Assembly (NCBI RefSeq): GCF_026723765.1
Contig: NZ_CP113524.1
Coordinates: 2,651,001-2,715,000 of the forward strand
Direction: 5' to 3'
DNA length: 64,000 nucleotides
From: Lacrimispora xylanolytica
Lineage (GTDB): Bacteria > Bacillota > Clostridia > Lachnospirales > Lachnospiraceae
Below, in pieces: positions 239 through 49,251 of this stretch; position 1 is the first letter of the stretch; the number at the start of each line of letters is the position of its first letter. A program made the position numbers and the translations under genes. Under the pieces are notes generated by a model. The model worked only from the letters and a program-made list of their open reading frames with translations. It searched no databases and had not been told where the DNA came from.

Positions 239-478
239 ATGAGTGATCTGGCAGCAACTAACTGTGGATGCGGATGCGACAACGGAGGATGTAATAGTGG
301 ATGTGGCTTTAATATTATTTGGCTTATCCTGATCCTTTGCTGCTGCGGCGGCAACAACAACGGTTGTGGTAATGGTTGCGGTGGTAACGATGGATGTGGT
401 AGTTGGATTTGGATCATCCTTCTCCTTTGCTGCTGCGGCGGTAATGGTTTTGGTGGCGGCAATAACTTCTGCTGCTAA
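239..478 (+). CDS. Cys/Gly-rich small protein (chorion-class high-cysteine type)
   Basis: A 79-residue protein with a strong ribosome-binding site (TTTGGAGG, 8 bases before the ATG). It consists of two copies of a module: a Cys/Gly/Asn-rich stretch followed by a hydrophobic run (IIWLILILCCCGG, then WIWIILLLCCCGG). About a quarter of residues are Cys. Similar proteins in Lachnospiraceae are auto-named 'chorion class high-cysteine HCB protein 13'; that name reflects composition, not function. The hydrophobic segments suggest membrane or surface association, and Cys-rich proteins of this size often belong to spore coats, but both ideas are inference. An intrinsic terminator follows directly. Confidence 0.8.
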   Translation: MSDLAATNCGCGCDNGGCNSGCGFNIIWLILILCCCGGNNNGCGNGCGGNDGCGSWIWIILLLCCCGGNGFGGGNNFCC

Positions 479-5500: not shown

Positions 5501-5786
5501 AAAAAAAGCGCCTCAGGCCATCTAAAAATCAGCCATAGAGACGCAGGTTCATCCGCGTGGTACCACTCTATTTCATACAATACTCGTATGCTCTCAAACG
5601 GATATGAGCTTCATATCCTCCCGCTATAACGGTCGGGTGTCCGGCAATACCTACACAAAAAATGTTTTTCCTTCAGTATGCTACTCAAAGGCGAGTTCGG
5701 CTGTCCTCCCCAACCGGCTCTCACCTGCCGCCGGCTCTCTGCATGTTTCAGACCGCTTACTATTCCTAATCACTGTATTTATGCTA
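5501..5786 (-). promoter_or_regulatory. T-box leader (leucine) of leuS
   Basis: On the minus strand the leader holds a stem I region and a specifier CTC (Leu, bases 5695-5693) in the context GAACTCGCCTTTGAGTAG. The conserved T-box bulge segment GAGTGGTACCACGCGG (5568-5553) follows. The last element is a GC-rich terminator stem (GCGTCTC with GAGGCGC) and a run of seven T (5507-5501). Uncharged tRNA-Leu should stabilise the antiterminator and turn leuS on. The codon assignment is from position and agrees with the downstream gene. Confidence 0.93.
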
Positions 5787-9160: not shown

Positions 9161-9553
9161 CTATTCATAAAAGCTTTTATCCAGCTTTCCACTTGATTCA
9201 AAATAATAGTATGTCTGCCCTACATAAGCTGGGCCCGTGACCATATGGCCGTCCTTCTCAAAATAATACCAGTCATTGCCCACCTGCTGCCACCCGGTTA
9301 CCATATAACCGTCCTGATCAAAATAATACCATATATTATCCACTGCACTAAAACAACCTTTTGCATAGGAACCGTCACTGTTTTTAAGTTTCCAGCCGTC
9401 CTGTTCCTGCTGCCACTCACACCACGAAACTACAGAGTCTGTCTGAGCCATTGCCTCAATCTGTACAGGGGACCCAGGAATCCATATCATGGCTCCAATA
9501 AAGAGCGCACAGCGTGTCCCGTAGGCGGCCAGTCTTTTCCATCGTGTTCTCAT
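9161..9553 (-). CDS. Secreted cell-wall-binding repeat protein
   Basis: A 130-residue protein with a signal peptide (basic MRTRWKR start, hydrophobic core, cleavage probably near residues 34-36) followed by three choline-binding-type (CW_binding_1) repeats. The repeats are recognised by D-G-x-M-V-T-G and the aromatic W-Y-Y-F motif: NIWYYFDQDGYMVTGW, NDWYYFEKDGHMVTG, QTYYYFESSGK. There is no catalytic domain, so it is only a wall-attachment module. ATG 9553 has GGAGGG 6 bases upstream. It starts 43 bases after the retron reverse transcriptase on the same strand but has its own promoter (9607-9578), so a shared function is uncertain. Confidence 0.85.
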   Translation of the reverse strand: MRTRWKRLAAYGTRCALFIGAMIWIPGSPVQIEAMAQTDSVVSWCEWQQEQDGWKLKNSDGSYAKGCFSAVDNIWYYFDQDGYMVTGWQQVGNDWYYFEKDGHMVTGPAYVGQTYYYFESSGKLDKSFYE

Positions 9554-9577: not shown

Positions 9578-9607
9578 ATTATACCAGACAAGCCTCTTAT
9601 GTTTCAA
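9578..9607 (-). promoter_or_regulatory. Promoter of the cell-wall-binding gene
   Basis: -35 TTGAAA (9607-9602), 18-base spacer, -10 TATAAT (9583-9578). The -35 box lies inside the last codons of the reverse transcriptase gene. Confidence 0.6.
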
Positions 9608-10577
9608 GTATACTTTGTATTTTTCCCTTTGCTTTTGCAAACCATATATCATCAGGATTGATATAGAGAAGATACTGGATCTTTCCAAGAAGGGAACGAA
9701 GATACCGGCGCTCTCTTTCCTCATCCGGTTCCTCTCTTCCTGTCACTGCAATATGGGATTTGGCTCCATATTTTAAGCAGTAAAATACTTCCTGGCGCAG
9801 TTTTCTCCGGTATTCCGGAGAGACCTTAGGTTTTCGATTGACTACAATACCAGTAACCGTCTGTCTCCTTCCCCAGGAAATAATTCTTGTCTTTCCCTGA
9901 TTTAAGGAAAAGCCCATATCGTTTAAAAAACCAGATACCTTCCGTATCACCGGACCTGGCTGAAAATCTCCTGAGAATGTCATATCATCACAGTATCTGG
10001 TATAAGAAATATTCCTTTTTTTGCACCACACCTTCATATAATCATCAAACGGTCTCATAACAAGATTGGATATTGCAGGGGAAGAAGGTGCCCCCTGTGG
10101 CAGATAATCCCGATAACAGCACAGAGCCGTAAGCATAGTTCCCACGGATGGTGGAAAATACCGGCCTGAAAATGCACTGTTTAAGACCATGGGGAAGGTA
10201 ATGCTTCCAAAAAAGTCTTCAATATCCATTTTTAGCACCAATTTCTTTCCTGTATGGACTGATGCATTGGTAAGAACTGAAGTGCCCTTTCGGTAGGCAG
10301 CCGCACAGGAAGACACTTCAAATTCGGATAGCACATGTTTTGTTATGTTTCTCTGAATCATTTTTAATAGATCATCTGGTACAAGAAGCTTGCGCTTTGT
10401 TCCATCGCTTTTTGGTATCAGTACGGTATGATAATGACGCTCCGTATGATTGCTTATGGCATAGAGGCAGCCAATCGCCTTTTCATCCGGCCAATCCTCG
10501 CTAAGAAGTTTAAAAGACAATAGCATGTCCCGGCAATGCTCCGGCGTACTATATTTCCAAAGTTCTGTCCCATACAT
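9597..10577 (-). CDS. Retron-type reverse transcriptase
   Basis: A 326-residue RNA-directed DNA polymerase. In order it shows the finger region with LVLKMDIEDFFGSIT (motif A, first catalytic Asp), LPQGAPSSPAISNLV (motif B), RYCDDMTFSG (motif C, YxDD with Cys at x) and LNQGKTRIISWG. VTGIVVN follows near residue 250; VTG is the signature by which retron polymerases are told from group II intron or DGR enzymes. There is no maturase or endonuclease domain, and the length fits retron enzymes. GGAGG lies 9 bases before the ATG. Directly upstream is an RNA with retron architecture (10618-10812), which supports the call. Retrons make msDNA and usually act in phage defence with an effector; no recognised effector is fused or adjacent. 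Confidence 0.93.
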   Translation of the reverse strand: MYGTELWKYSTPEHCRDMLLSFKLLSEDWPDEKAIGCLYAISNHTERHYHTVLIPKSDGTKRKLLVPDDLLKMIQRNITKHVLSEFEVSSCAAAYRKGTSVLTNASVHTGKKLVLKMDIEDFFGSITFPMVLNSAFSGRYFPPSVGTMLTALCCYRDYLPQGAPSSPAISNLVMRPFDDYMKVWCKKRNISYTRYCDDMTFSGDFQPGPVIRKVSGFLNDMGFSLNQGKTRIISWGRRQTVTGIVVNRKPKVSPEYRRKLRQEVFYCLKYGAKSHIAVTGREEPDEERERRYLRSLLGKIQYLLYINPDDIWFAKAKGKIQSILET

Positions 10578-10617
10578 AGACCAATTCCTCCGCTTCGTCA
10601 GTCAACCAGAAGTATAT

Positions 10618-10812
10618 CAGCAGAAGCAATACTAAAATGATACCGTAAGATGCGAAGACGTACGCACGCATGTGTCCCGCACATGCGCATGCACATGCAA
10701 TGTGCGGTGGTACTTCGCAGCAGCTTGCGGTCTATTATGATCCTATGATGATCCGGACAGCGACTCGCTGCCCGGCCGAATGCTTAATCCGGAAAAACTA
10801 TTGCTTCTGCTG
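10618..10812 (-). ncRNA. Candidate retron msr-msd RNA
   Basis: The region between the reverse transcriptase and the aro promoter is bounded by a perfect 14-base inverted repeat, CAGCAGAAGCAATA and TATTGCTTCTGCTG (10618-10631 and 10799-10812), matching the a2/a1 repeats of retrons. Read on the minus strand, a1 is followed at once by a G (10798), where the branching guanosine lies in well-studied retrons such as Ec86. An msr-like hairpin comes next (10775-10753, CCGGGCAGC with GCTGTCCGG). Last is a long msd-like stem: CCGTAAG/CTTGCGG (10643-10649 and 10724-10730), TGCGAAG/CTTCGCA (10651-10657 and 10713-10719) and CCGCACAT/ATGTGCGG (10677-10684 and 10700-10707). The RT start is 40 bases beyond a2. 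Boundaries are read from base pairing only. Confidence 0.88.
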
Positions 10813-15271: not shown

Positions 15272-15553
15272 TAATAAAACAAACCGTTGAAAAAGAGAAG
15301 TAAGCTTTCCCTGCGATATTTCAGAGAGCCGCCGTTGGTGCGAGTGCGGTATAAAGCGGATAGCCGAATGGACTTTTGAGGGCGGCCCTGAACCTAATTG
15401 TTTGTAGGGGCTGACGGATTCCACAACCGTTATTACTGGTGGCATATATGTTAGTATATGAAAAGTGGGCTTTTTTTAAAGTCAATTTGAGTGGCACCGC
15501 GGATTGTATAATTCGTCTCAAGTATGTAGAACTACGTACTTGGGGCTTTTTTT
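15272..15553 (+). promoter_or_regulatory. T-box leader (tryptophan) of the ABC importer operon
   Basis: The leader has a stem I region with specifier TGG (Trp codon, 15369-15371) in the context CCGAATGGACTTTTGAGGG. The T-box sequence GAGTGGCACCGCGG (15489-15502) and a terminator stem CTCAAGTATGTA/TACGTACTTGGG (15517-15528 and 15533-15544) with a T-run at 15547-15553 follow. Uncharged tRNA-Trp would favour readthrough into trpXYZ. The specifier is read by position in the conserved GAA-NNN context; it is a tryptophan codon and agrees with the transporter family. Confidence 0.9.
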
Positions 15554-48734: not shown

Positions 48735-48912
48735 CGTACGCCCCCTAATAATAAATTTCCCGTGTGATATCACGTGACACTTATAGGTTTTATTATGCTC
48801 TATTTGGTAAATTGTTTCAACTAATAAAAAAAGAGCCCCTGGAAATAGGAGCATTTTCAAATGATACAACACGTAAATTAAAAAAGCCTAGCATATGCTA
48901 GACTTTTTTTAG

Positions 48913-49251
48913 TGGAGCAGACGGGAGTTGAACCCGTGTCCAAAAACCAATTCCCTGTTCTTCTACTATCATAGTCAGTCTATTGACATTCCCTCCGCTG
49001 CACGGGAACTGACACCCTTACAGCTTCAGTAGCTTCATAATACGTCCGTGTACTCAAAGCTTTGTACACGTCGTTTCTCACATAGTCGATGCCGGGATCT
49101 TAAAGTGTGAGTGCCTTAAGGCCGACAAGCAGCTTACGCTGCTAAAGCTAATTTATTATTGTTAGCGTTTATATTTAGGTTTGCCATTTGACGCATCGCA
49201 TACGGATAGCTTCACCAGCTGCATAGCCCCTGTCGAAACCAGTACTGCCCC
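48913..49251 (-). ncRNA. ssrA: tmRNA
   Basis: Rescues stalled ribosomes by trans-translation. The 5' end GGGGCAG pairs with CTGCTCC at the 3' end (acceptor stem, one G-U), and GGTTCAACTCC near the 3' end is the T-arm. The tag frame lies at 49166-49134 and encodes ANNNKLALAA followed by a stop, ending in the usual LALAA degron. The downstream pseudoknot region is present. The CCA end is not encoded (CTA follows the discriminator A), so it must be added. The gene is followed by an A/T-rich stretch on the left. Confidence 0.95.

Follow-up and report, generated by a model that had tools for sequence, protein, structure and literature searches.

The analysed window is a 64,000-nucleotide stretch of the Lacrimispora xylanolytica chromosome (contig NZ_CP113524.1, positions 2,651,001 to 2,715,000). 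It contains, on the minus strand, a retron that comprises a reverse transcriptase (RT) gene and an upstream msr-msd RNA. The features of the locus, in window coordinates, are as follows.

9597 to 10577, minus strand: retron RT of the Ec107 family, a single open reading frame of 326 amino acids with YCDD, NASVH and VTG motifs
10618 to 10812, minus strand: msr-msd non-coding RNA, 195 bases from a1 to a2, defined by sequence, fold and covariation
10799 to 10812, minus strand: a1 arm of the inverted repeat, CAGCAGAAGCAATA, 14 bases, covarying with a2
10798, minus strand: predicted branching G (2'-5' priming site), directly after a1
10776 to 10792, minus strand: first msr hairpin, 6 bp, from the fold
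10754 to 10774, minus strand: second msr hairpin, 9 bp, with a conserved GCGAGTCGC tip, from fold and covariation
10633 to 10741, minus strand: predicted template of the reverse-transcribed DNA (RT-DNA), the msd, deduced in part from chromosomal copies
10618 to 10631, minus strand: a2 arm of the inverted repeat, the perfect complement of CAGCAGAAGCAATA

The coordinates given in the original prediction are correct, and RVT_1 is the only domain in the 326-residue protein. The original prediction named YCDD and VTG motifs; both are present, the catalytic YCDD being intact, together with NASVH, which fits the retron NAXXH motif. Among the PADLOC RT families, the RT_Ec107-like model scores 475.7 bits and the runner-up, RT_III-A, 318.2 bits; the top-scoring families, among the best 25 of 72, are those of retron RTs. 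The solved structures that match the protein best are also retron RTs, and it is among solved structures only that Ec86 is the top match. The G directly after a1 at 10798, for which Ec86 was cited originally, is present, but the nearest known retron is Ec107.

The Ec107 replacement site of E. coli lies between slmA and pyrE. Of 5374 matched records of this species, 373 have the slmA-pyrE site split, a record being counted as split when no single place covers 80% of the site. This site was chosen as the Ec107 reference because PMC6868368 describes Ec107 as replacing 34 bp of an intergenic region; the same review reports the absence of a mobile element nearby and a YCDD motif in RT-Eco5. Two split records were inspected, and each has one annotated RT gene and its RNA between slmA and pyrE and nothing else. 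The Ec107 RNA is carried by 373 E. coli genomes. The E. coli RT from this site scores 437.4 bits with the PADLOC RT_Ec107-like model, also bears YCDD and is 48% identical to the window RT over 313 amino acids.

In agreement with the original assignment to the retrons, a tree of 51 RTs places the window RT inside a retron clade of 34 rows that it shares with the E. coli Ec107 RT (support 100/99), the branching order within this clade being mostly unresolved. The rows L058, L009, L060 and L073, typed as III-A by PADLOC, fall outside the clade; one clade member, L074, scores equally with the III-A and the Ec107-like models. YCDD is found in 32 of the 34 rows, and L071 and L074 have YSDD. The RT is under purifying selection, with dN/dS values of 0.055–0.194 across seven pairs. 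The type strain of [Clostridium] aerotolerans has a closely similar retron, with 97% identity in the RT and 99% in the RNA. A pattern search of viral contigs yielded no relative of the RT, and phage records contain distant RTs only, the best among the matches listed standing at 43.8%. Judged by its sequence, the window element is a retron of the long-known Ec107 (Eco5) family and no new kind.

The 195-base RNA that was proposed originally is indeed bounded by a perfect 14-base inverted repeat, located at 10812–10799 and 10631–10618. The segment 10830–10598 folds with an energy of −84.3 kcal/mol compared with a mean of −63.97 for shuffled sequences (z −4.93), and none of the 200 shuffles reached this stability. 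The computed fold contains the expected 9-bp msr hairpin and long msd stem; the earlier description of the msr missed a smaller hairpin at 10792–10776, which precedes the 9-bp one.

Both the arms and the msr hairpin covary across relatives above the level of shuffled partners, so these stems of the original prediction are borne out. For the arms at 23 loci, which were picked as the best complementary stretches and are thereby biased towards pairing, 303 of 322 cells are paired and 60 double changes are seen, compared with maxima of 262 and 32 in 500 partner shuffles. For the msr hairpin at 29 loci, anchored by its tip alone and with 3 of its 13 columns lying beyond the helix, the corresponding values are 280 of 377 cells and 44 double changes, with shuffled-partner maxima of 254 and 33. 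Counts of pair types are no higher than in the shuffles (46 against a maximum of 46, and 44 against a maximum of 44). The arm test omits 11 of the 34 upstream regions, namely L004, L006 and the second Ec107 as near-identical, and L021, L049, L052, L053, L056, L069, L070 and L073 on account of unclear arms. A further control with mismatched arms gave a mean of 9.1 compared with 13.7 observed; however, it was not relied on because its maximum of 19.3 equals the level of good real arms, perhaps due to related loci. The arms stay complementary in relatives while their sequence differs, and thus the structure is not a product of chance; pairing and double changes above those of the shuffles imply that the RNA structure is kept by selection.

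A G directly follows a1 at all 23 loci with clear arms, the end of a1 having been placed by eye at three of them (Ec107, L048 and L054). The GCGAGTCGC tip or a near variant lies upstream of 29 of the 34 Ec107-clade RTs (24 exact) and of 1 of the 17 RTs outside the clade, and we propose the shared msr hairpin with this tip as a candidate feature of the Ec107 family. At one locus of the host genus (L021, genome G008), the msr is enlarged by ~ 100 extra hairpin-like bases between a1 and the conserved hairpin.

A close relative of the RT occurs in 12 of 25 genomes of the host genus, one of them (G019) with a broken gene, the retron being no more than 8 kb from aroF in each of the 12. Both genomes of a second genus of the family (g47) also have the RT by the aro genes. 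The distance from aroF to the EF-G-like gene is ~ 290 bp in G012, which lacks the RT, compared with ~ 1,980 bp in the window. The broken RT gene of G019 (L024/L029) implies that the retron is not indispensable; the RNA and one older msd copy (L228) persist in this genome. Elsewhere in the window lie two T-box leaders (5534–5782, minus strand, and 15278–15523, plus strand), one preceding a leucyl-tRNA synthetase gene and the other ABC transporter genes, a tmRNA gene (48910–49251, minus strand) with the tag ANNNKLALAA, and a short Gly/Cys-rich open reading frame (239–478, plus strand) in which two hydrophobic stretches were recognized by eye.

With 326 amino acids and RVT_1 alone, the RT carries no fused effector. 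Neighbour genes were clustered at 37 loci, and every gene family within 1.5 kb of the RT is limited to at most 2 of the 22 context groups, which represent loci outside the host genus and g47. Two neighbour families are shared by two context groups; one of them is the PRTase gene of the type III-A loci L107 and L110. At L110 PADLOC names the partner gene PRTase, and a winged-helix gene adjoins. Since the clustering recovers the PRTase partner of III-A retrons, the method detects a true retron partner, and the lack of a recurrent neighbour in the presence of this control indicates the absence of a cis effector, in keeping with the E. coli site. The original statement that no standard effector is fused or adjacent is therefore upheld. 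A small protein of 130 amino acids with choline-binding repeats is encoded next to the RT (9161–9553, minus strand). It was considered as a partner and rejected: its gene is present at the same site in G011 (L143), which has neither the RT nor the retron, and its cluster is found at 2 of the 37 loci.

A search of the host chromosome with the msr-msd RNA as the query yielded a second match, at chromosome positions 3227763–3227857, which is identical to window positions 10727–10633 over 95 of 95 bp and extends no further. It ends a single base away from a2, at the expected start of reverse transcription from G10798. It is flanked by a fragment of an uncharacterised gene (no Pfam match) and by the start of a cold-shock gene (PF00313) in reversed orientation; because both are same-strand neighbours in G014, the copy fills a rearrangement junction. 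The stretch that holds it, next to a GMP synthase gene, cannot be aligned between two strains of the same species (L161 5488–9427 and L251 2311–12384). As the copy is unmutated, it is probably recent. Two more msd pieces are present in the host genome, both diverged.

The survey was extended to the 25 genomes of the host genus using two RNA queries. Extra msd pieces with E < 1e-5 occur in 8 of the 12 genomes with the RT (G000, G001, G005, G006, G019, G020, G021 and G023), compared with none of the 13 without it (Fisher test p 0.00046, kinship ignored). The RT-bearing G002, G008, G010 and G018 have no extra piece at this threshold, and the RT-less genomes show weak matches only, at 9.0e-4 in G009 and 1.1e-3 in G004. 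G001 has seven msd-piece places, one of them doubtful. In G006, 82 of 82 bp of the copy match the msd of that same genome, which differs from the msd of the window, and two pieces in G001 agree fully with its own RNA, over 57 and 42 bp. Many of the other pieces are diverged relative to the RNA of their own genome, and several form hairpins whose tips vary.

The table of 20 copy loci includes each orthologous place a single time and omits matches above E 0.001. When compared with the 233-base RNA query from their own genome, 18 of the 20 lie inside the 109 bases of the msd; the pieces at L163 and L215 extend into the msr, past the predicted RT-DNA. Three independent loci begin at the same msd base, 27 positions after the start of the tip (window 10741), and at the nine loci that reach the far side the match ends 2 to 16 positions short of where a2 begins. 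No msd copies were found on viral contigs by a pattern search or on plasmids by blastn. For the Ec107 RNA, each of the 373 E. coli genomes that carry it yields one place only at E ≤ 1e-5, and the two searched g47 genomes have no match besides the retron itself; thus capture of this kind is not general to the Ec107 family.

Clean empty sites were found for two inserts. A 42-bp insert in G001 has an empty counterpart in G000 and G023, and an insert of ~ 32–35 bp in G005 has one in G020, G021 and G006. Inspection by eye indicates 1–3 bp of microhomology at the junctions and no evident target duplication at the two clean sites. Both clean inserts also abut terminator-like palindromes by eye. Preferential insertion next to palindromes was rejected after two tests without an excess, with 1 of 17 inserts within 15 bp against 7.5% expected, and 8 of 17 against 6.4 expected under looser rules. 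L163 aligns with a replaced stretch rather than a clean empty site, L216 sits within a larger insert, and clean empty sites were not found for L161, L224, L237 and L239; L215, L218, L220, L223, L226, L228 and L241 have no usable counterpart. At L219 (606–849, G001) the tip is expanded to a GT-rich stretch of ~ 150 bases, with an older partner in G000. L221 and the site of L222 are present with the same length in G000 and G023, as judged from the alignment of L221 with G000 and otherwise from flank spacing; these two are thus old or due to chance. Overall, some msd pieces are old, common to several species, or doubtful.

We regard it as probable that the locus is a working stand-alone Ec107 (Eco5) retron without a cis effector, whose RT-DNA the chromosome occasionally captures. 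The RNA would fold from 10812 to 10618 with a1 paired to a2, and the RT, in line with retron biochemistry, would prime from the 2'-OH of G10798 and copy the msd inward. The RT-DNA would start opposite 10633 and end at about 10741–10727, its outer limits being suggested by the recurrent start at 10741 and by the exact 95-bp copy at 10727. Taken together with this biochemistry, the copies suggest a hairpin DNA product of ~ 95–109 nt. In the E. coli Ec107 RNA, 107 bases (the length in the Ec107 name) counted from the same start end 21–22 bases after the start of the tip, which is near but not equal to the +27 limit of the genus copies. Most likely this msDNA, with its free 3' end, is at times ligated into breaks of the chromosome that share hardly any homology with it or none. 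Msd pieces, intact or broken, would then land at unrelated places, and fresh ones would equal the msd of their own genome. The matches to the own msd and the empty sites point to msDNA that is made natively and sometimes captured by the chromosome, and we infer both that msDNA is synthesized and that captured RT-DNA is the source of the copies.

The origin of the copies could be explained in two other ways, both of which fit the data less well than the capture of RT-DNA. The retron locus might have been copied at the DNA level, for instance by template switching during break repair, and the pieces at L163 and L215 that reach into the msr as well as the 1–3 bp of junction microhomology seen by eye are compatible with such copying. 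Yet it would have to confine itself to the 109 msd bases of a 233-base query at 18 of 20 loci, begin at the same base (tip start +27) at three independent loci, and in the exact copy stop a single base from a2, at the expected start of reverse transcription; we therefore consider it unlikely. Alternatively, the pieces might belong to an independent small repeat of the MITE or REP type that was the source of the msd and not its product. The hairpin form of several pieces, with tips that vary, and the age of some, which are common to several species, agree with a repeat of this sort, but none is found in the 13 RT-less genomes at E < 5e-4, fresh pieces equal the msd of their own genome though msds differ between species, the outer ends are variable rather than fixed termini, and inspection of the two clean sites by eye revealed no target duplication. 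This origin is very unlikely.

The other alternatives concern the retron itself. It might be a tripartite anti-phage system whose effector is encoded elsewhere in the genome, with the RT-msDNA complex restraining a toxin in trans. Described retrons act as systems of RT, RNA and effector, the RT is under purifying selection, and the patchy presence in 12 of 25 genomes fits a defence gene; on the other hand, no more than 2 of the 22 context groups share any one family within 1.5 kb of the RT, although the PRTase control was recovered, and the E. coli Ec107 site consists of RT and RNA alone in the two records inspected. An effector in trans is thus a real possibility, albeit one that we hold to be somewhat doubtful. 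A domesticated or decaying RT that makes msDNA no longer is very unlikely: the dN/dS range of 0.055–0.194, the intact catalytic motif, the covarying RNA and the unmutated, hence probably recent, 95-bp copy all speak against it, whereas the stable chromosomal site near aroF, the broken gene in G019 and the ~ 100 extra msr bases in G008 could be reconciled with it. More speculatively, and with little expectation that it will prove correct, the Ec107-type retrons of the genus may act toxin-free, with msDNA as the acting product that is used by, or leaks into, chromosome repair and forms a standing source of small insertions. If so, msDNA would undergo a slow natural retrotransposition and the chromosomal remains would record retron activity.

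A stand-alone Ec107 retron with occasional capture of its RT-DNA, which is the reading that we favour, extends a classical family to the clostridia, together with a telling RNA hairpin. The msd copies would be physical traces of native retron DNA synthesis, hint at the ends of the RT-DNA with no experiment needed, and suggest that retron DNA can enter a chromosome without designed homology, which is relevant to genome editing with retrons as in-cell DNA makers. The route of msDNA into genomes and a role of effector-less retrons in repair or mutation are thereby made testable. What seems to be new is the combination of copies in several species, identity to the own msd, recurrent ends, empty sites and absence from RT-less relatives. 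The open-licence literature searched contains no paper that combines a retron with Lacrimispora and none titled on scattered msDNA copies in Bacillota.

The closest known system is Ec107 (Eco5). The two RTs are 48% identical and share YCDD, both RNAs follow the order a1, G, hairpins, GCGAGTCGC hairpin, msd and a2, with lengths of 188 bases in Ec107 and 195 in the window when both arms are taken as 14 bases, and no other gene is present at the site in the two E. coli records. The window retron differs in that its host belongs to another phylum, its msd sequence and arms are distinct, and scattered copies are absent at E ≤ 1e-5 from 373 of 373 E. coli genomes. Type III-A retrons (PADLOC RT_III-A) are the next-best RT family at 318.2 bits; their nearest typed rows, e.g. 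L058, lie outside the Ec107 clade, and the III-A loci L107 (whose RT is that of L058) and L110 share an RT-adjacent gene whereas Ec107-like loci share none. Scattered retron sequences have a precedent in Nannocystis exedens (Retron-Nex1, Ne160): the review PMC6868368, citing Lampson and Rice 1997 and Lampson et al. 2002, describes msr/msd repeats in the Nannocystis chromosome with no RT nearby, proposed to be retrotransposed msDNA. Both cases feature retron sequences in the chromosome without an adjacent RT. In contrast to Nannocystis, the copies in the host genus mostly comprise the msd alone, derive from an Ec107-family source in another phylum, and are found in several species with empty-site counterparts.
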